From: a virus
DNA: 22,076 bases
Reading direction: 5' to 3' (one strand)
IMG/VR virus record: IMGVR_UViG_3300009604_004001
Span: 1-22,076 of that record
The translations under genes and the position numbers were made by a program. Position 1 is the stretch's first letter. Every line of letters begins with the position of its first letter. Under the pieces are notes generated by a model. That model did no database searches. It was not told the DNA's origin and saw only the letters and a program-made list of their open reading frames with translations. Shown one piece after another: positions 3,291-17,268 of the stretch.

Positions 3291-3793
3291 GTGGTGGCTT
3301 CTCCCTCGATGAACTAACCACCGCGCTCCACGACGCGGTCATCAAGGCCTCGAACATAGGTGAGCAGGCCGCTCTATCCGCTATTCAAAAGGAAGAGCAG
3401 TGGGTCGTTGTGCTAAACGACGACGGAACTCCAGCGCAAGATGACCACGGTAATGCTGTCTACAGGCCGCGCATGGTCACTCTGCGGTTGCCGTTCTGGG
3501 AGGATGGCAAAAAGATTGAGCGAGACATCGAGGTTCCACTCTCTACCTTGACGACCAACAGCCAGCTGATGCTCGACAAGATCTCCGTGAAGATGAAAGT
3601 TCAACTCCATGGCCTCGATGACAAGGCCGATCTTGGTTGCGAGCACAGAAAGATTCGCATCAACACGAATACGGGCGGGTTTCTTGGAAAGAAAAGCGGT
3701 AATATGGCTGAGCTTGAGCTCGTGTTTAGCGGCAACGATGCAGCGGAAGGCGCAGTAAGAATCGATAACCAACTGATCAAGCTCATTCCTTAG
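3287..3793 (+). CDS. DUF2589-like protein, short partner of the pair
   Basis: A 168-residue protein with a GTG start coupled to the upstream stop. The N-terminal third is helical (LTTALHDAVIKASNIGEQAALSAI). It is followed by strands containing RPRMVTLRLPF and the core IEVPLSTLTTNSQLMLDKISVKMKVQL. That core aligns by eye with VPLLAILNTPSLSVKEVDVEFTMEV of the next gene, a clear DUF2589-type protein. The tail has a glycine-rich loop and ends IDNQLIKLIP. No enzyme residues are apparent. In bacterial genomes DUF2589 genes commonly occur as adjacent unequal pairs, and the same arrangement is seen here. Function is unknown. Distant homology to the neighbour is my reading of the pattern and needs a profile search. 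Confidence 0.6.
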   Translation: MSGGFSLDELTTALHDAVIKASNIGEQAALSAIQKEEQWVVVLNDDGTPAQDDHGNAVYRPRMVTLRLPFWEDGKKIERDIEVPLSTLTTNSQLMLDKISVKMKVQLHGLDDKADLGCEHRKIRINTNTGGFLGKKSGNMAELELVFSGNDAAEGAVRIDNQLIKLIP

Positions 3794-3801
3794 GAGAAAA
3801 A

Positions 3802-4404
3802 ATGCCTGATGGCCTCGTCTCAATGTCCTCCCAGTTTGGTGGCTTGCCGATGGATCAACTCATCGGTGGACCACTCAAGGCTGCATGCGATTCACAGGTA
3901 CAGCTCGCGGCTGCTACTGCAGACTTCATTCAGACCGTTGGCCTTGAGAAGGATGCGAATGGTGTCCTCACAACCAGGACGGTTGACTTCACCTACCAGA
4001 AGCCGGTGAACGATGGGCAGGGTGGGTTCACAGAAGAAACCAATAGTCTTTCTGTTCCCTTGCTTGCTATCCTGAATACTCCATCGCTATCTGTGAAGGA
4101 AGTGGACGTGGAATTCACGATGGAGGTGAAGTCCAGCACCTCATCCAAGGCCAGTCGCGATTACCAGGCCACCCTGGATACCGAAATCAAAGCAGGGTGG
4201 GGCCCGGTCAGTGTTGACGTGAAGATCCACGGGTCAGTCTCATCTCACAATGAGAACACGAGGAGCTCGGATAACTCCGCAAAGTACACTGTGAAGGTAC
4301 TAGCCCGAGACGACGGAATGCCTGAAGGACTAAAGCGATGTCTTGACATCGTTCAACAGGCTATTGCAGAGAAGCCACAACCAGCAGCTCCAGTCCAACC
4401 GTAG
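3802..4404 (+). CDS. DUF2589 family protein
   Basis: A 200-residue protein with a very strong AGGAG Shine-Dalgarno about 5 nt before the ATG. It shows the features I associate with DUF2589 (PF11655): an N-terminal helix LIGGPLKAACDSQVQLAAATADFI, the RTVDFTYQKP strand, the VPLLAILNTPSLSVKEVDVEFTMEV core, a variable polar linker (about residues 115-155), and a C-terminal KYTVKVLARDDGMPEGLKR strand-helix. The tail is Pro/Ala rich. The family's biochemical role is not established to my knowledge. Lack of a signal peptide suggests a cytoplasmic or virion location. It follows its shorter relative at 3287 by 8 bp, and a beta-rich virion-type gene starts 7 bp after it. Confidence 0.8.
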   Translation: MPDGLVSMSSQFGGLPMDQLIGGPLKAACDSQVQLAAATADFIQTVGLEKDANGVLTTRTVDFTYQKPVNDGQGGFTEETNSLSVPLLAILNTPSLSVKEVDVEFTMEVKSSTSSKASRDYQATLDTEIKAGWGPVSVDVKIHGSVSSHNENTRSSDNSAKYTVKVLARDDGMPEGLKRCLDIVQQAIAEKPQPAAPVQP

Positions 4405-4411
4405 GTAGATC

Positions 4412-4777
4412 ATGGCAATCAGCATTACAACAATGTCGACCAGTATTGGTGCCGACGTTGTTTACGACACCGGAGTCGGTCTTACCGCTGTCGAGAACAT
4501 CGTTGGCGGCTCTGGCACCTGGTATACGATCTGCGCCAAGAACACAGACTCTGCAACTGCATACCTCAAGTTGTTCGACGCCAAGACATGCGTGCCTGGT
4601 ACTGATCATCCGAACTGGGTGCTGCAGTGCAAGGGTAGCGATACCAGCATCTGGACTGTTCCAGACGGGGTGACGTTCCCAACTGGTTTGAGCTACTTTG
4701 CGTCGGAAGAGCAGGGCATTACGGCCACAACGGCACCGAGTGCGCTGACTATGTGGATCGTTATTAAGAAGGATTGA
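4412..4777 (+). CDS. Beta-rich virion-type protein, member 3 of a local paralogue family
   Basis: A 121-residue protein, Thr/Ser/Val rich, with three cysteines. It fits the family pattern of the 2170, 2559 and 4782 proteins: GTWYTICAKNTDSATAYLKLFDAK, then WVLQCKGSDTSIWTVPDGVTF, then LSYFASEEQ and a last strand MWIVIKKD. The last strand closely resembles VRVLIKDMS at the end of the 4782 protein. There is no membrane segment. The ATG is preceded by a TAGGTAGATC sequence that is nearly identical to the junction before the endolysin at 5191. A virion accessory role is inferred. Confidence 0.6.
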   Translation: MAISITTMSTSIGADVVYDTGVGLTAVENIVGGSGTWYTICAKNTDSATAYLKLFDAKTCVPGTDHPNWVLQCKGSDTSIWTVPDGVTFPTGLSYFASEEQGITATTAPSALTMWIVIKKD

Positions 4778-4781
4778 TACC

Positions 4782-5183
4782 ATGGCTACTTCCGCAACAA
4801 CATTCAGAACGAATATCGCATCCATTGAGGTGGTGGATACCGATTGCACTACGACCAGCAGCAACGACCTTACTGGTAGTGTTGGAAGTCTAGGGCCGAT
4901 CATGTATGAGATCGACAACACCGGAAACACCACGACCTTTGCTCACCTCAAGGTGTACGACAGCGCGGACCCTGCTGACGGCGGCAGTGCAAGTCCAGAA
5001 CTCATTCTTCGCGTGCAGGCCGGCGTGAAGCGGCAGTTCATTTGTATGACTGAAAATACGACCCCAGCAGGAGACGAAATTGCCAACCTGTCGCTGCGAT
5101 GCGTGACGGAAGGCGGTATTGCCGGAACCACCAGCCCAACATCTGACGTGACTGTTCGTGTTCTGATTAAGGACATGTCGTAG
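4782..5183 (+). CDS. Beta-rich virion-type protein, member 4 of a local paralogue family
   Basis: A 133-residue protein starting 4 nt after the preceding stop. Its pattern MYEIDNTGNTTTFAHLKVYDSADP, then ELILRVQAGVKRQFICMTENTTP, then LSLRCVTEGG and VTVRVLIKDMS parallels the neighbour at 4412 segment by segment, so this looks like a tandem duplicate with strong divergence. There are three cysteines and no membrane segment or enzyme motif. A decoration, fiber or other virion role is inferred from family expansion and location immediately before the endolysin. Confidence 0.6.
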   Translation: MATSATTFRTNIASIEVVDTDCTTTSSNDLTGSVGSLGPIMYEIDNTGNTTTFAHLKVYDSADPADGGSASPELILRVQAGVKRQFICMTENTTPAGDEIANLSLRCVTEGGIAGTTSPTSDVTVRVLIKDMS

Positions 5184-6918: not shown

Positions 6919-7872
6919 TTAAGCGAACGGGTCAGCGTCTTCCGCGAGCTCGACCGGCTCTTCTGGTTCTGGGTGGTCGTGTACGAATTCGTTTGCGGGC
7001 TCTTCTGCAGCAGTCTCGACCACCCTCTTGGCCCTGCTCTTTCGCCTTTTCCTCTGCGCAGGCGGTGCGTCCGCATCAATGGTCTCGGTGACATTGAGCA
7101 GTGCCTGCTCGCCCGCATCCTTCTCAAGGTCCTTGCGGACGGCTTCTGGCACGAACATGTCCGTATTCTGGCCAGCAATATCCGAGACTGTGTCGTGGGC
7201 CAGCGCGGCCCTCGCATCAGCTGTGAGTGGCAGGTACTTGCAGATGCGTCGGATGACGGTCTTGCGCCACATCTCTTCGGTGTGCGTGACCCACGGCCCT
7301 GACTGGCCGCTGCGTGCCGAGTTGCGGATGGACTCGATCTGGTCTCGGCGCATGACCTCAACCTGCTTCTGGCCATCCTTGAAGAAGCACACAGCGTATG
7401 CGAGCACGGGCTGACCGGGATCCCCATCGTACTTCGGGCGGTGCCGAAGGACCTCTCCTCCCTCCAGATCGAAGACGTGTTCGAAGTCCTCGTTCTCGTG
7501 GACCACCCGAGCCACAAAGTTGGCGACATCGCCTGATCGGCGCACCAACTCCATCAGGCCGGTGTAGTCAATCCAGAGCTCGGCTTCCATGGTTTTCCGC
7601 TTGCTGTTGTAGAGCGGAACCAGGTGGGCTCGGTGTAGCACACCGCCGGCGACAAGGTTGAGCTCGCAGGCCTTGGCTAGAGAGGTGTAGACAGACTCTG
7701 GGCTGCAGTCCAGAAGGCGTTCGTTCTTGTAGGCCTCAAAGCAGGCCAGGTTGACGATGCGCTCAATATCTGTGCCCTTGGGGGCGATTCGCTTGAGGGT
7801 GGGGGATTTTCGCTCAAGGTATCGCTTGAGATCGTTCAGTCTGCCTGACTGTGTAAGTGCTGTGTTGCTCAC
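6919..7872 (-). CDS. recT: RecT family single-strand annealing protein
   Basis: A 317-residue protein. Residues about 25-245 match the RecT family (PF03837) by recognisable segments: SPESVYTSLAKACELNL, HLVPLYNSKRK, a central LWIDYTGLMELVRRSG, the motif WVTHTEEMWRKTVIRRICKYLPL, and conserved spacing between them. RecT proteins anneal complementary single strands exposed by a partner exonuclease; here the partner is the YqaJ gene immediately upstream, whose stop overlaps this GTG start (GTGA). A GGAG Shine-Dalgarno precedes the GTG. After about residue 270 there is a basic patch (QRKRRKSRAKR) and an acidic tail ending EDADPFA, reminiscent of SSB C-terminal tips. Assignment is confident; the tail function is inference. 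Confidence 0.92.
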   Translation of the reverse strand: MSNTALTQSGRLNDLKRYLERKSPTLKRIAPKGTDIERIVNLACFEAYKNERLLDCSPESVYTSLAKACELNLVAGGVLHRAHLVPLYNSKRKTMEAELWIDYTGLMELVRRSGDVANFVARVVHENEDFEHVFDLEGGEVLRHRPKYDGDPGQPVLAYAVCFFKDGQKQVEVMRRDQIESIRNSARSGQSGPWVTHTEEMWRKTVIRRICKYLPLTADARAALAHDTVSDIAGQNTDMFVPEAVRKDLEKDAGEQALLNVTETIDADAPPAQRKRRKSRAKRVVETAAEEPANEFVHDHPEPEEPVELAEDADPFA

Positions 7873-8834
7873 GATTTATCTCCAATGATGCGCAGCACCC
7901 GGGCGCCAACGCGTACTGAAAGGTAGGACTCGTATAGTTCCGGGTGGTCCTTTTGAAACTTCTTCTGGTCGAATCGCTGAGAGTCTTTGTTCTTCTTCCA
8001 GGTGGCGATCTTATCTATGCCGGCGCCGTCGCCGATAGCGGCCCTCAGTCTGTTTTCGATTGTGCTCTTCTCAGACGAGAGCTCCTTGTGGAGCCGACGA
8101 ACCTCGAGTAGACGCTCGTGCATTCCGATTTCATTCCCAGTCGCTGGGCGAAGTGACTCCGCTTTTGGGCGCGGGTGCATCAAGGCGAGTGCCGCCTTGG
8201 CTAAATCGCTGCCATCCGGAGGTGGCGGGACGTTCCCATCGACGTGCTTGCCCCACCAGGCGAGGGCGGTATCGAGGATCTGTGTGCCAAGTTCCTTGTC
8301 GCGATCGATTCGATATTCTCTGTAATCGTCCAGTCCAATCAGAACGGCGACATCCCATCGATCCAGATCGGACACCTCCATGTAGACTCTGCACTGCACC
8401 TCGACATCGAGTGGAACCAGGCCTGTCCCGCCTTCTCCCCATCCGCGCGAGGATCTGCGGGTCTTGATCTCCAGCCCCCACGTTTGATTGCGTGAGTCTG
8501 TGACAATGCGATCCGGAGTGCCAAAGATATGCGGCCTTTCGGGGTGCCAGACCAGGCCACACTCCTTCACCTCTACGTTTGGATTGCTCTCGGCGTAGAG
8601 CTCAGACACATACTTCTCCATGATCCGGCCACGCTTCATGACTGGATTGTCTGATTGCTCTTCGATTTCGAGGCGCATCTTGTTCGACCAGAGCGCAAAC
8701 GGGCTCTTCCCGAAGGAACCGTTCTTCATTTCACTGCTGGCTGATGCGCACACGATGGAGGCGATATCGGTACCGCCTAGTCCACCCTTTCGTTCACGGA
8801 GCCACTGCTGCCGTTCGTTGGTTGTCATGTTCAT
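7869..8834 (-). CDS. yqaJ: YqaJ-family phage exonuclease (lambda Exo-like fold)
   Basis: A 321-residue protein when started at the ATG at 8834; an in-frame GTG at 8879 would add 15 residues but sits upstream of the promoter -10. Motifs of the YqaJ nuclease family (PF09588) are in order: GLGGTDIASI at 19-27, G69 to E73, GTPDRIV at 105-111, LEIKT at 121-125 (metal-binding Glu/Lys), and a following Gln in VEVQCRVYM. Such enzymes resect double-stranded ends to give the 3' single strands used by RecT, the next gene. The C-terminal half carries a helical extension (HERLLEVRRLHKELSSEKSTIENRL) and ends before recT by a 4-nt overlap. High confidence in family, moderate in start. Confidence 0.9.
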   Translation of the reverse strand: MNMTTNERQQWLRERKGGLGGTDIASIVCASASSEMKNGSFGKSPFALWSNKMRLEIEEQSDNPVMKRGRIMEKYVSELYAESNPNVEVKECGLVWHPERPHIFGTPDRIVTDSRNQTWGLEIKTRRSSRGWGEGGTGLVPLDVEVQCRVYMEVSDLDRWDVAVLIGLDDYREYRIDRDKELGTQILDTALAWWGKHVDGNVPPPPDGSDLAKAALALMHPRPKAESLRPATGNEIGMHERLLEVRRLHKELSSEKSTIENRLRAAIGDGAGIDKIATWKKNKDSQRFDQKKFQKDHPELYESYLSVRVGARVLRIIGDKS

Positions 8835-8840
8835 AAAGGA

Positions 8841-8869
8841 AGCGTAGTCACGGCTGATGGGTGTGTCAA
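8841..8869 (-). promoter_or_regulatory. Leftward promoter for exonuclease-recT unit
   Basis: On the minus strand TTGACA (8869-8864), a 17-bp spacer and TACGCT (8846-8841) are present. The -35 is perfect and the -10 matches TATAAT at three positions. A start about 7 nt downstream would coincide with the ATG at 8834, implying a leaderless or nearly leaderless message. The -35 is embedded in an inverted repeat. Confidence 0.55.
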
Positions 8870-8880
8870 GGAGGCACACA
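8862..8880. promoter_or_regulatory. Candidate operator (TGTGT-N9-ACACA) over the leftward -35
   Basis: Arms TGTGT (8862-8866) and ACACA (8876-8880) flank 9 bp and cover the leftward -35 box. The site lies 7 bp from the -35 of a divergent rightward promoter, so a bound dimer could switch between the two directions. The Cro-like protein at 8936 is the obvious candidate ligand. The arms are short, so this is tentative. Confidence 0.4.
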
Positions 8881-13586: not shown

Positions 13587-13973
13587 CTATCCTTGGAATA
13601 AATTGTAAATAGGTCGTTTGTTTGTGCTGTCTTCGGAGCGTGTGGCCATGAGTGTCACCTCGCCGGCATCGTCTCCGTTGTCGTTGCGCACGCTCTTGCA
13701 GATCGAGAGCGTCTCTCCGAGGTTGAACTCCTCATCACTGTCTGGAAGTTCCATGACGATTTGATCGAAGGCCAGGTCAATCATCGGAACGATGTTCGTG
13801 TGAACGCCTGTGGCGCCACAGTATTCGTAATGCCCGATGCCCTGATCCTCAAAGTCTAAGGAGCTATTGTCAAGTACGGCCCAGAGCTCATCAAGTACCT
13901 GGTCGCATACGTCACGCTCGTAGTTCTCGTCGTATTCAACGAGCAGTGGTCGGGGGGCTGCGCTTCGCTTCAT
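13587..13973 (-). CDS. Hypothetical acidic protein, 128 aa
   Basis: A 128-residue acidic protein (many Asp/Glu; EYDENYERDVCDQVLDELW) without membrane segment or recognised motif. It is first in the leftward regulator-primase-VapE unit, downstream of the best promoter in the window. The leader carries a CTCG(T)TGTTGTGT element (plus-strand reading) also found before two other starts. An early role such as host takeover or replication control is possible; the sequence shows nothing specific. The next gene, the HTH regulator, follows after 3 nt. Confidence 0.6.
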   Translation of the reverse strand: MKRSAAPRPLLVEYDENYERDVCDQVLDELWAVLDNSSLDFEDQGIGHYEYCGATGVHTNIVPMIDLAFDQIVMELPDSDEEFNLGETLSICKSVRNDNGDDAGEVTLMATRSEDSTNKRPIYNLFQG

Positions 13974-14038: not shown

Positions 14039-14926
14039 TCACTCGTTGAGAGTTTTTTGATGTCCGCGGAACAATGGCGCCACAAATTTGAGAGCTTGCT
14101 CCTTCGCTTTGTGGGCCCCGTACATGGCGGCAGGCCTTGACCAGAGACGAGACAGGAGCCTCCACTCTGTGGGGTAATCGATCCACCTGTCCTCTGGTTG
14201 GTACAGCTGGGCATGAGGAATACAGTCGAGTTCCCACACCCGCTCGAGGCGGCTGGTCGCCTTCTCTATGGTGTCGTTGCCGAAGCCAATGAGGGTGTAG
14301 ACCCGGAGCCTCTTCATGGAGACGTCACTGAGGATCTCTCTCGCCTTCTCCAGGTGGTGGATGGCCAGCTTGGTGTCGGCCGCGAGGAAGATCTGTCCGA
14401 GCCTGATGGTCTGTACCTGTTCTGCAAACCAGGGATTGACCAGGCGACAGTCGATGCCGCCGGCGAACTCAATGCGTTCTGACTGGTTCCGCAACATCTC
14501 GAACACTCCGGCCTGGTGAGCTCTTGAGGCCTGCAGGAAGTTGTTGTCCTGGATTATCCAACCAGGCGGATAGTCTGGTATCTCAACGATGCGTCCTTCC
14601 CGAGCTGGGACCCGACACCATGGACACTTTCTGTTGCAGCCCCGTGTTGTGAATGTCACGCCTTCCTTGATGTACTTGCCCGGAACAAACTTCCCTTGCT
14701 CCTCATCAAAGGCGGGGCCGCCAATCTTGACGACGGGGTAGTGGGCTGCCCATGCTCTCTGGAGCCTCTTGCCTTTCTCGATGTCCCAGGTGAATGCCAC
14801 GGAGACATGCACCTCACTCACGACCGATGGGTCAGGTCTGAACATGGGCGGGTCGCCGACGAATGCCAACGCATCCTTCGGGGTGTGGGAGTTGCGCCTT
14901 GGGAATACCCGGATGAGTTTCTTCAT
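14039..14926 (-). CDS. Radical SAM enzyme
   Basis: A 295-residue protein started at the ATG at 14926 (MKKLIRVFPRR...), with GGGG upstream and 5 nt after the previous stop; a GTG at 14956 would overlap that gene. The signature TTRGCNRKCPWC has C97-x3-C101-x2-C104, the canonical ligands for a SAM-binding 4Fe-4S cluster. Residues 1-90 (FPRRNSHTPKDALAFVGDPP; VHVSVAFTWDIEKGKRLQ) form the N-terminal region seen in a phage/bacterial radical SAM subfamily and resemble a degenerate B12-binding-like domain. IEFAGGIDCRLVN and LRVYTLIGFGNDT continue the barrel. The substrate is unknown. Adjacent PP-loop and methyltransferase genes suggest nucleic acid modification. Confidence 0.87.
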   Translation of the reverse strand: MKKLIRVFPRRNSHTPKDALAFVGDPPMFRPDPSVVSEVHVSVAFTWDIEKGKRLQRAWAAHYPVVKIGGPAFDEEQGKFVPGKYIKEGVTFTTRGCNRKCPWCRVPAREGRIVEIPDYPPGWIIQDNNFLQASRAHQAGVFEMLRNQSERIEFAGGIDCRLVNPWFAEQVQTIRLGQIFLAADTKLAIHHLEKAREILSDVSMKRLRVYTLIGFGNDTIEKATSRLERVWELDCIPHAQLYQPEDRWIDYPTEWRLLSRLWSRPAAMYGAHKAKEQALKFVAPLFRGHQKTLNE

Positions 14927-14931
14927 CGCCC

Positions 14932-15918
14932 CTACTTCTCTGAACCAGTGTCGCACATCCCCCAGCGCACACAGCCCTGATGGCCTGTCGGGTCAGTGAA
15001 GAGTTCTACCTGGTTCATGCTCCCGCCTCGAGTGGTGCGAGCCCACTTGATCACCTTGTCGATAGGCCAGCCATCACCCGCACGCTTTCCCGTCTTCGCG
15101 TCAGTTCTGGAGATCGGATTCTGGAACCAGGTAGGGGGATGATATCCGAGAGACTCGAAGGTCTCACCCTTGTCGGCATATCGAGCCGCGGCCATATCCA
15201 TAACGACCTCTTCGAGCTCGCCAAGAATGCTTAGGCGTTCTGGCGTGAAGTCGCTCATGGCCCGCAGCTCCGCCTTTCTAGCAAAGATGCATGGGTAACA
15301 GCCTACCCTGGTCGATCCTTGCTCAAGGTAGAGTCGGCAGGGGCGCACCCCGTGGCGCTGGTGGATAGCGATGACATCCTCTTCCGACCAGTCGATCAGT
15401 GGGCGCCAGACATCACACTTGAAGGTTCCGCTGTGTTCCCATTCCAGCATGAGAGACCGGGCGGCACTCTCCTGGGCCCGGATGCCCACGACATTGACCA
15501 CTTGGCCCTCGCGCTCAAGGAGGTAATCCCTTGCCGGGAAGACCTTGAGGCCTTGAGTACACCACCGCCTGACGCGAGAGGGAAACATTCCCTTCTTCAG
15601 ACAGAGCCGCACCATCGAGGAATACTCCACTCCAAGCATCTTCTCGAAATGCTCTGCGATTGGAACCAACTCTTCCTTGAGGTCGATCTTGGCTTGAAGC
15701 CTGGTCACGGGCCCCACGACAGCTGGGAGATCGTTCTCTACATACTCATAGAGCAGGTCGTGTTCCCATCCAGTATCGAAGAAGATGCGGTCGTACTCGT
15801 CAGGCTCGAAGCCCAACTCCATGAGGTACAGGCAGCAGGCCGTGGAGTCCTTGCCACCGCTGACAGAGACAACCAAGCGTCGTCCTGCGAGGATGTCATT
15901 GAGTTCTGTGCGTGTCAT
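14932..15918 (-). CDS. PP-loop ATPase, PAPS reductase/DndC-like family
   Basis: A 328-residue protein whose ATG overlaps the methyltransferase stop by 4 nt. The PP-loop VVSVSGGKDSTAC (16-28) activates a substrate by adenylation. Downstream are RRWCTQ (C120), VVGIRAQESAAR, WRPLIDWSEEDVIAIHQ, and C194 plus VGCYPC (C207/C210). The cysteine set is consistent with an Fe-S cluster as in DndC, some tRNA thiolases and many phage PAPS-reductase-like proteins. The SGGKDS form favours a thiolation or modification ATPase over sulfate assimilation. No DndA, DndD or DndE is present, so classical phosphorothioation is not supported here. The tail (VELFTDPTGHQGCVRWG) is unassigned. Confidence 0.83.
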   Translation of the reverse strand: MTRTELNDILAGRRLVVSVSGGKDSTACCLYLMELGFEPDEYDRIFFDTGWEHDLLYEYVENDLPAVVGPVTRLQAKIDLKEELVPIAEHFEKMLGVEYSSMVRLCLKKGMFPSRVRRWCTQGLKVFPARDYLLEREGQVVNVVGIRAQESAARSLMLEWEHSGTFKCDVWRPLIDWSEEDVIAIHQRHGVRPCRLYLEQGSTRVGCYPCIFARKAELRAMSDFTPERLSILGELEEVVMDMAAARYADKGETFESLGYHPPTWFQNPISRTDAKTGKRAGDGWPIDKVIKWARTTRGGSMNQVELFTDPTGHQGCVRWGMCDTGSEK

Positions 15919-16763
15919 CGTCCTTCCCTAACTTGTCGGAACAAAGGCGCGTCGCCCCTGATTCGTCTGCGAGCTTCTTCTGCGTACTCTTCGTTGAGCT
16001 CATAGCCCAGGAAGTTTCTGCCCAGCCTGTTCGCCACCAGGCCGGTGGTGCCAGCGCCGGCGAATGGATCGAGCACCAGGTCTCCGACTGCACTCCCGGC
16101 CTTGATGCAGCGCTCTGCCAGCAGCTCCGGCATGACCGCTTGATGGCTTCCTGCGTACCTGGCCACAGGCATGGACCAGACATCTCTCGGTCGGCGGCCG
16201 TCGAGCTCGTCAGCGTTGTACACGCGCCCGCTGTAGGTGTCGTTGCCGCTCTGCTTGTGCCCGCCAAAGCCAGCTGTGATGGTGGCGTTCGGATGCTTGA
16301 GTGGTTCAAGCACAGCCTGCATATCGAAGTAGTAGTCGTGCTGCTTGGCAAAGAGAAAGATGTATTCGTGCGATGGCGTGAAACGATTGGTGACGCCACC
16401 TCCTGCAGGGATGGGATTGGTCTTGTGCCAGATGATGTCGGAGCGCAATATCCAGCCACGGCGCTTGAGTTCAAGAGCCACGCGCCACGGCATGCCAACC
16501 AACTCCTTGTTGTGGTAGCCGTCTCCGATGTTCAGCCACAGCGTTCCGTCGTCTGTGAGGATGTTCCCGACTATGTCCAGCCTGTTGGCCAGTTGGTAGA
16601 CGTATTCATTCCTGGTCTGGTCAGCGCCGAGCTCGCCATCGGTTCCATAGTTCCGTTGGTTCCAGTAGGGCGGGCTCGTCACGCAGCACCTGGCCGCGTT
16701 GGTAGATGATTCTGTAAGGTTCTGGCAGTCTCCATGGATTACTGCAGCCCACGTTTCAGGCAT
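15915..16763 (-). CDS. DNA methyltransferase, beta-class (N4-cytosine or N6-adenine)
   Basis: A 282-residue protein from the ATG at 16763, chosen because GGAG lies 9 nt upstream and the overlap with the preceding gene is only 8 nt; the frame is open to 16850. Catalytic motif IV SPPYW (30-34) comes first and the SAM-binding motif I DPFAGAGTT (about 232-240) comes last, the order that defines beta-class amino-methyltransferases. IHGDCQNL and ILTDDGTLWLNIGD are additional conserved segments. SPPY favours N4-cytosine, though N6-adenine is not excluded. No restriction endonuclease gene is adjacent, so it is probably an orphan phage enzyme that shields DNA or marks regulatory sites. Confidence 0.92.
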   Translation of the reverse strand: MPETWAAVIHGDCQNLTESSTNAARCCVTSPPYWNQRNYGTDGELGADQTRNEYVYQLANRLDIVGNILTDDGTLWLNIGDGYHNKELVGMPWRVALELKRRGWILRSDIIWHKTNPIPAGGGVTNRFTPSHEYIFLFAKQHDYYFDMQAVLEPLKHPNATITAGFGGHKQSGNDTYSGRVYNADELDGRRPRDVWSMPVARYAGSHQAVMPELLAERCIKAGSAVGDLVLDPFAGAGTTGLVANRLGRNFLGYELNEEYAEEARRRIRGDAPLFRQVREGR

Positions 16764-17268
16764 GTTGTATGTCTCCGGAGAACAGTTGGAGGGTTGAGTT
16801 GATTGCCAGTTCTGCTGGCGGCATGTCTGCGGGCAACAGCTGGAGCGCAATGAGGCCCAGGTCTTTGGTCTTGCCCACTTCCTTGAATCCTGCCCGCCTA
16901 TAGCACCGGCCGAAGTCCCGCTTCTTGCGGACCTTGCGTGGGTCTACGAAGGTGATCATGCCGAGCTCTGGCGGGTCTCCCCACACAGCACGGGTAGCGG
17001 CGATGGCCTCGAGTATGAGCTCACTGGAGAGGCCGGCGCCCTCGTTCCGGAACAATGAGTTCACCCAGGCGCCAGCCCATGCGTGCTTGGTGTACTCCGG
17101 AAAGGGCCAGGACGTGACCCACAGCGCCTTGGCGGGAGCTCCTGCCAAGAGCACGACGCACCGACCAGGCGGGACGAACTGCGAGCTTCCAACCTTCTGT
17201 CGGTTGTAGTGCCTATCGGCTAACGGCAACGCTTCCTTGTCGGCGCGGCTGGATACTCGCCACCTCAC
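16756..17268 (-). CDS. GNAT-like phage protein, 170 aa
   Basis: A 170-residue protein with a GTG start overlapping the microprotein stop by 4 nt. I recognise the layout of a phage family with GNAT-acetyltransferase-like appearance: ADRHYNRQKVGSSQFVPPGRCVVLLA, ALWVTSWPFPEYTKHAWAGAWVNSLFRNEGAGLSSELILEAI, GMITFVDPRKVRKKRDFGRCYRRAGFKEVGKTKDLGLIALQL. The strand-helix order and CYRRAGFKEVGKT resemble the acetyl-CoA-binding end of GNATs, but a clear Q/R-x-x-G-x-G/A loop is not evident. It sits directly upstream of the methyltransferase, so involvement in DNA modification or anti-restriction is possible. Substrate unknown. Confidence 0.6.
   Translation of the reverse strand: MRWRVSSRADKEALPLADRHYNRQKVGSSQFVPPGRCVVLLAGAPAKALWVTSWPFPEYTKHAWAGAWVNSLFRNEGAGLSSELILEAIAATRAVWGDPPELGMITFVDPRKVRKKRDFGRCYRRAGFKEVGKTKDLGLIALQLLPADMPPAELAINSTLQLFSGDIQHA

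Follow-up and report, generated by a model that had tools for sequence, protein, structure and literature searches.

A phage four-gene cassette containing a radical SAM protein whose family recurs beside DNA-modification genes

What might a phage gain from a single tight run of genes that combines a DNA methyltransferase (MTase) with a GNAT-fold protein, a PP-loop protein and a radical SAM protein (rSAM)? The question is raised by the 22,076-base IMG/VR fragment IMGVR_UViG_3300009604_004001 (hereafter the window, i.e. the whole stretch of DNA analysed), which stems from a tailed-phage-like virus and carries these four genes at 14039–17268 on the minus strand. Nothing rivals phages as a source of unusual DNA bases; to our knowledge, none of these bases has been traced to a radical SAM enzyme. 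The cassette proved to be real and coherent, with the rSAM family, phrog_9298, as its interesting part. On balance, we lean towards reading the locus as a post-replicative anti-restriction DNA-modification island composed of exchangeable modules, probably translated from one message, in which the rSAM would act chemically on DNA.

The genes surrounding rSAM relatives may point to DNA as the substrate. Our collection from viral contigs comprised 80 rSAM loci, that from genome contigs 67. Neighbors were ranked in the viral collection, supplemented by a small number of further phage loci and loci reached through the GNAT (86 in total, forming 50 clusters at 60% identity). Genes for MTases, Mom-type or other GNATs, DpdA-like proteins and PP-loop proteins were counted as DNA-modification genes. 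Such a gene was the immediate same-strand neighbor of the rSAM gene at 12/80 positions, as compared to 13/439 positions at ranks 2–8, a fivefold enrichment (Fisher p = 8e-5) that persisted (p = 7e-4) when the numerator was reduced by L056 and L071, both fetched through their GNAT. The partner was an MTase in L157, L163, L164, L173 and L190; a GNAT in L020, L056, L071 and L168; a Mom-family protein in L158/L159 and L165 (with another one near the rSAM in L151–L153 and L178); a DpdA-like protein in L206/L207; and a PP-loop protein in the window, L181 and L187. L206 and L207 belong to another phage lineage: the DpdA-like gene directly follows the rSAM gene, and the loci, which are short, yielded no further member of the set. 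When centered on the GNAT or the PP-loop gene, the rank test was not significant at the immediate-neighbor position (p = 0.15 and p = 1.0, respectively). An initial annotation of the window had proposed neighborhood analysis of the rSAM and PP-loop families; of the rank tests, only that centered on the rSAM reached significance.

Related gene sets also occurred outside viral contigs. A prophage-like region of Pseudobacteroides cellulosolvens (L236:3293-8336) encodes a PP-loop protein, a ParB-MTase, an rSAM, another ParB-MTase and a cytosine methyltransferase-like open reading frame (ORF) in one run, while genome contigs of Ruminococcus flavefaciens (a metagenome-assembled genome, MAG), Phyllobacterium and an Eubacteriales MAG harbor the series MTase, rSAM and PP-loop; helicase-MTase, PP-loop, unannotated gene (DUF) and rSAM; and MTase and rSAM, respectively. 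Those in Pseudobacteroides, Ruminococcus and Phyllobacterium represent independent MTase/PP-loop/rSAM sets. Likewise, the Bacteroides phages LoVEphage and BKO1-TP3 possess rSAM, PP-loop and MTase genes within a few kilobases. These recurrences bear on a competing explanation, according to which unrelated accessory genes—an orphan MTase, and a GNAT, a PP-loop protein and an rSAM acting on small molecules or proteins—are simply stacked, their adjacency reflecting clustering in early regions. That the four genes are not conserved as a set, that PP-loop genes are equally frequent in rSAM and GNAT records (6/50 each), and that a PP-loop homolog of phage 186 annotated as 'not essential' (orf84, see below) has neither MTase nor rSAM in the 4.5 kb inspected would all fit this scenario. 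However, it accounts poorly for the enrichment of DNA-modification genes right next to the rSAM gene and for the way in which rSAM, PP-loop and MTase genes come together time and again in unrelated (pro)phage-like contigs, and we regard it as rather unlikely.

All four cassette ORFs of the window are intact and lie on the minus strand, in the order GNAT-fold protein (16756–17268), MTase (15915–16763), PP-loop protein (14932–15918) and rSAM (14039–14926). Junctions were measured from start codons with a plausible ribosome-binding site. Accordingly, the MTase, whose ORF is open to 16850, was assigned the ATG at 16763 downstream of an RBS-like GGAG, and the rSAM, whose ORF is open to 14956, the ATG at 14926 following AGTAGGGG. 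The GNAT and MTase genes then overlap by 8 nucleotides (nt; MTase ATG at 16763, GNAT stop at 16756) and the MTase and PP-loop genes by 4 nt (15918/15915), and a 5-nt gap separates the PP-loop and rSAM genes (14932/14926). Given such tight junctions, the four genes are likely translationally coupled. The initial annotation had described the same junctions, and the identities it assigned to the four products—a GNAT-like protein, a beta-class DNA MTase, a DndC/PAPS-reductase-like PP-loop protein and a CX3CX2C radical SAM enzyme—were likewise recovered, as detailed below.

The MTase matched PF01555 with 168 bits (cut-off 26.7; E 3.5e-49), and in its translation TSPPYW (SPPY, motif IV) precedes DPFAGAGTTG (motif I), a motif order which identifies it as a beta-class DNA N6-adenine/N4-cytosine MTase. 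The 170-aa protein encoded at the head of the cassette (phrog_24928) bears the motif ADRHYNRQK and conserved TFVD and GRCYRxAGF. None of its 25 relatives had a Pfam match (0/25); its AlphaFold model (pLDDT 85) retrieved almost exclusively GNATs as top PDB matches, with probabilities of up to 1.00 at an E of only 4e-3, so that by predicted fold it falls into the GNAT superfamily.

Mom-family GNATs have been described as phage DNA modifiers (PMC7824862). With the adenine modifier Mom of phage Mu (PF25680/phrog_1384), itself a member of the GNAT superfamily, the window protein shares the fold, the N-terminal HY(S/N)R motif, [ST]FxD and the GxxYx4Fx3G spacing, the last of which is common in GNATs generally; moreover, true Mom-family proteins adjoin rSAM genes of phrog_9298. 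Yet, the window protein is not assigned to Mom itself: PF25680 matched 0/25 of its relatives, the profile–profile comparison was weak (hhalign E 0.063) and a viral fold search listed a Mom protein only at rank 13. Two GNAT-related loci deserve separate mention. At L016:9986-12373, the GNAT frame stays open as far as a DNA polymerase domain of family A, as a possible GNAT–polymerase fusion or read-through product, and L005:7420-7887 encodes an XF1762-family protein, also Mom-like (phrog_1384, weak PF25680), between helicase and SSB/rSAM genes. We also considered whether rSAM and GNAT jointly represent Elp3, and rejected this: in Elp3, a single tRNA-directed protein comprises both domains, whereas here they are encoded by separate genes, Elp3 was not among the 50 best structural matches of the rSAM, and the match from the GNAT side was weak (E 0.38).

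The rSAM itself matched phrog_9298 (E 2.9e-25) and, weakly, Pfam PF04055 (0.016). Its predicted structure (pLDDT 91) consists of an N-terminal region and a radical SAM barrel. By sequence, the N-terminal region resembles a degenerate domain of the B12-binding type, in which no cobalamin motif was seen. The CX3CX2C motif (C107-C111-C114) together with a partial TIM barrel places the protein in the radical SAM superfamily, and these cysteines are retained in nearly all of 67 relatives (C107 in 67/67, C111 in 66/67, C114 in 67/67). The best structural matches were MiaB, RimO and AprD4 (E down to 1e-5). This resemblance raises the possibility that RNA is the target, i.e. that in the infected cell the MiaB/RimO-like rSAM acts on tRNA along with a PP-loop protein of the TtcA/MnmA superfamily, the MTase being incidental. 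Weak matches of the PP-loop protein to the MnmA and TtuA profiles and the presence of RtcB, a tRNA ligase, in the LoVEphage locus point in the same direction. But the window rSAM is only 305 aa long, and C107, C111 and C114 are the only cysteines conserved among its 67 relatives; the three that coordinate the auxiliary 4Fe-4S cluster defining MiaB/RimO methylthiotransferases are absent from the conserved positions, and by this cysteine criterion the rSAM is not a methylthiotransferase. As, in addition, the PP-loop relatives neighbor MTase, QueC and DpdA-like genes, we deem an RNA-directed function unlikely.

Phage rSAMs have been linked to DNA before. Unexplained phage PAPS-reductase and rSAM modules have been published, and an rSAM/DUF483 module of the Thermus phages Cumys and phiMa was proposed to introduce a DNA modification of unknown kind (PMC11437467); the general idea of a phage rSAM locus producing a DNA modification is hence not new. 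By description, the Cumys/phiMa protein compares to that of the window as a phage rSAM that is suspected of modifying DNA and whose relatives lie next to deazapurine genes. The partners differ, being GNAT, MTase and PP-loop proteins here rather than DUF483, and no Thermus phage was among our tblastn matches. In open-licence papers, we found no description of the four-gene arrangement or of the phrog_9298 neighborhood pattern.

The PP-loop ATP-pyrophosphatase-type protein (328 aa; PF01507, E 1.5e-19; phrog_424) displays an SGGKDS loop and five cysteines (C120, C207, C210, C316, C322) that are invariant in 24 relatives. Grouping with sulfate-assimilation enzymes would have contradicted the initial annotation. 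Instead, in profile comparisons, the protein scored far below the curated cut-offs for PRK02090 (33 vs. 154 bits), APS_reductase (27 vs. 235) and cysH (22 vs. 165), and we therefore rejected an identity as a CysH reductase. A role in sulfate assimilation is unlikely here, and the recurrent neighborhoods of phrog_9298 provide context for phage genes annotated as 'PAPS reductase'. Among them is orf84 of phage 186 (L145:1744-2748; 'PAPS reductase', P2-like 'cysH'), which is 33% identical over 94% of the window protein and whose record states 'unknown function; not essential'; unlike the window protein, it has no MTase, rSAM or GNAT gene in the 4.5 kb inspected around it.

PAPS-reductase proteins are also known from phosphorothioation and BREX (PMC12839542, PMC12707154). 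The window protein has in common with SspD, DndC and BrxP the PP-loop PAPS-reductase fold and conserved cysteines, and SspD was its nearest PADLOC defense model (E 6.3e-23; DndC, E 1.4e-10). An SspD/DndC-like enzyme could conceivably act on phage DNA with the help of a host cysteine desulfurase, and the invariant cysteines are in line with this. Against such phosphorothioation, the NCBIfam DndC score was 32 bits (cut-off 290), and the partner genes were not found: SspB (DUF4007, PF13182) matched 0/9 phage records, though no control genome gave a match either, and cysteine desulfurase (PF00266) 0/9, a function for which the host enzyme could stand in. PP-loop genes adjoining rSAM genes in other genomes scored best to BrxP or DndC, not SspD. 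We did not assign the protein to DndC or SspD, and judge a phosphorothioation pathway highly improbable. As to the company of its relatives, these occur with QueC (above cut-off in 6/27 records), DpdA-like genes and MTases, and in Agrobacterium phage Rivra two MTases flank the PP-loop gene.

How fixed is the combination of the four genes? The complete set was confined to the near-identical contigs L002/L003/L012/L013, with L004 as a truncated copy. In a sample of 50 GNAT-bearing phage records, 4 encoded an rSAM, 6 PAPS-type proteins and 25 a PF01555 MTase. The sister phage L014 (35,275 bases) carries GNAT (94% identical), MTase and PP-loop genes in the same order and lacks the rSAM gene; between GNAT and MTase (3584-5049), it contains QueC (PF06508, 4e-41) and a DpdA-like gene (phrog_15826), an arrangement repeated in L112 and in L110, where the contig is truncated before the GNAT. 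Both QueC and the DpdA-like gene are missing from the window as well as from a 34,030-base contig (L003, G001) of the same phage (99.9% identity across 21.9 kb). Because the rSAM is absent from the sister phage and the genes mostly do not co-occur in the 50 GNAT records, the island is modular, its parts being exchangeable DNA-modification modules instead of one fixed pathway. Lack of co-conservation across relatives, which the initial annotation would have taken as a refutation, thus applies to the four-gene set as a whole but not to the DNA-modification theme.

The sister phage brings up 7-deazaguanine modification, for which phage pathways have been described (PMC6884629). PP-loop protein, MTase and GNAT might tailor a DpdA-inserted base, the window phage having lost or outsourced DpdA and QueC. 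Consistent with this, L014 and L112 hold GNAT, DpdA-like, QueC, MTase and PP-loop genes in one run, DpdA-like and QueC genes are paired with a PP-loop gene also in L110, L117 and L124, and the QueC assignment was confirmed. The DpdA-like label derives from homolog annotation (37%-identical mycobacteriophage proteins annotated as DpdA-like); a PDB profile search to establish this identity returned nothing. Furthermore, most GNAT and PP-loop relatives come without QueC and the DpdA-like gene, and the window phage, over its known 34 kb, has neither of them and an rSAM instead. We accordingly dismissed the locus as a 7-deazaguanine pathway, and a tailoring function of this type appears distinctly unlikely. 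In the window phage, we found no complete Dnd, Ssp or 7-deazaguanine pathway, the initial annotation having named Dnd, queuosine and archaeosine as not completely visible.

If the cassette does constitute a DNA-modification island, as we favor, all layers would act on replicated phage DNA. The MTase would methylate a sequence-specific base; the GNAT-fold protein would most likely transfer an acyl group from acyl-CoA onto a base, by analogy with the supposed action of Mom; the PP-loop enzyme would adenylate an oxygen, activating its replacement by sulfur or nitrogen; and the rSAM would generate a 5'-deoxyadenosyl radical to functionalize a base carbon or an installed methyl or acyl group. Each layer would block a different set of host nucleases. 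What the analysis establishes are the gene identities, their coupling, the folds, the recurrence beside DNA-modification genes and the swapping of modules between sister phages; DNA as the target, the individual chemical steps and the anti-restriction role are inferred. Several points weigh against this model. One of the closest folds of the rSAM is the tRNA enzyme MiaB, and the PP-loop genes show the equal prevalence noted above. Most phages with the GNAT lack rSAM and PP-loop genes, and a joint product is therefore not required. Small accessory genes cluster in phage early regions anyway, for which rank statistics control only partly. The initial suggestion that the cassette builds a protective DNA modification thus stands insofar as relatives of each component recur beside DNA-modification genes, and falls short in that no single four-gene pathway is conserved. 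A bolder version, which we advance tentatively and consider to have a minor chance of being correct, casts phrog_9298 rSAMs as a common tailoring step in phage DNA hypermodification that elaborates whatever group a neighbor installs: a methyl by an MTase, an acyl by a GNAT or Mom, or a deazaguanine by a DpdA-like protein. Teamed with a GNAT, the rSAM would then resemble an Elp3 split into two proteins and directed at DNA, yielding a carbon-linked or branched new base modification. Recurring alongside genes for MTases, Mom proteins, other GNATs, DpdA-like proteins and PP-loop proteins, phrog_9298 offers a concrete, testable candidate for building unusual DNA bases.

As for the phage as a whole, a nucleotide search of phage records for the window yielded fragments only, and an Rfam scan of the window gave no matches. 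Its replication region (6919–8879) encodes a RecT-like annealing protein paired with a RecE-like exonuclease. Outside the window, the same phage possesses a giant single ORF of 3,362 aa (L103, G001:C1, 26–10114, plus strand), to which a 4,004-aa ORF of the sister phage (G002:C1, 21172–33186, minus strand) is 59% identical. Just after the rSAM gene, the window encodes a 128-aa protein with no PHROG or Pfam match (13587–13973), which is kept in the sister phage (60%), there right after the PP-loop gene.

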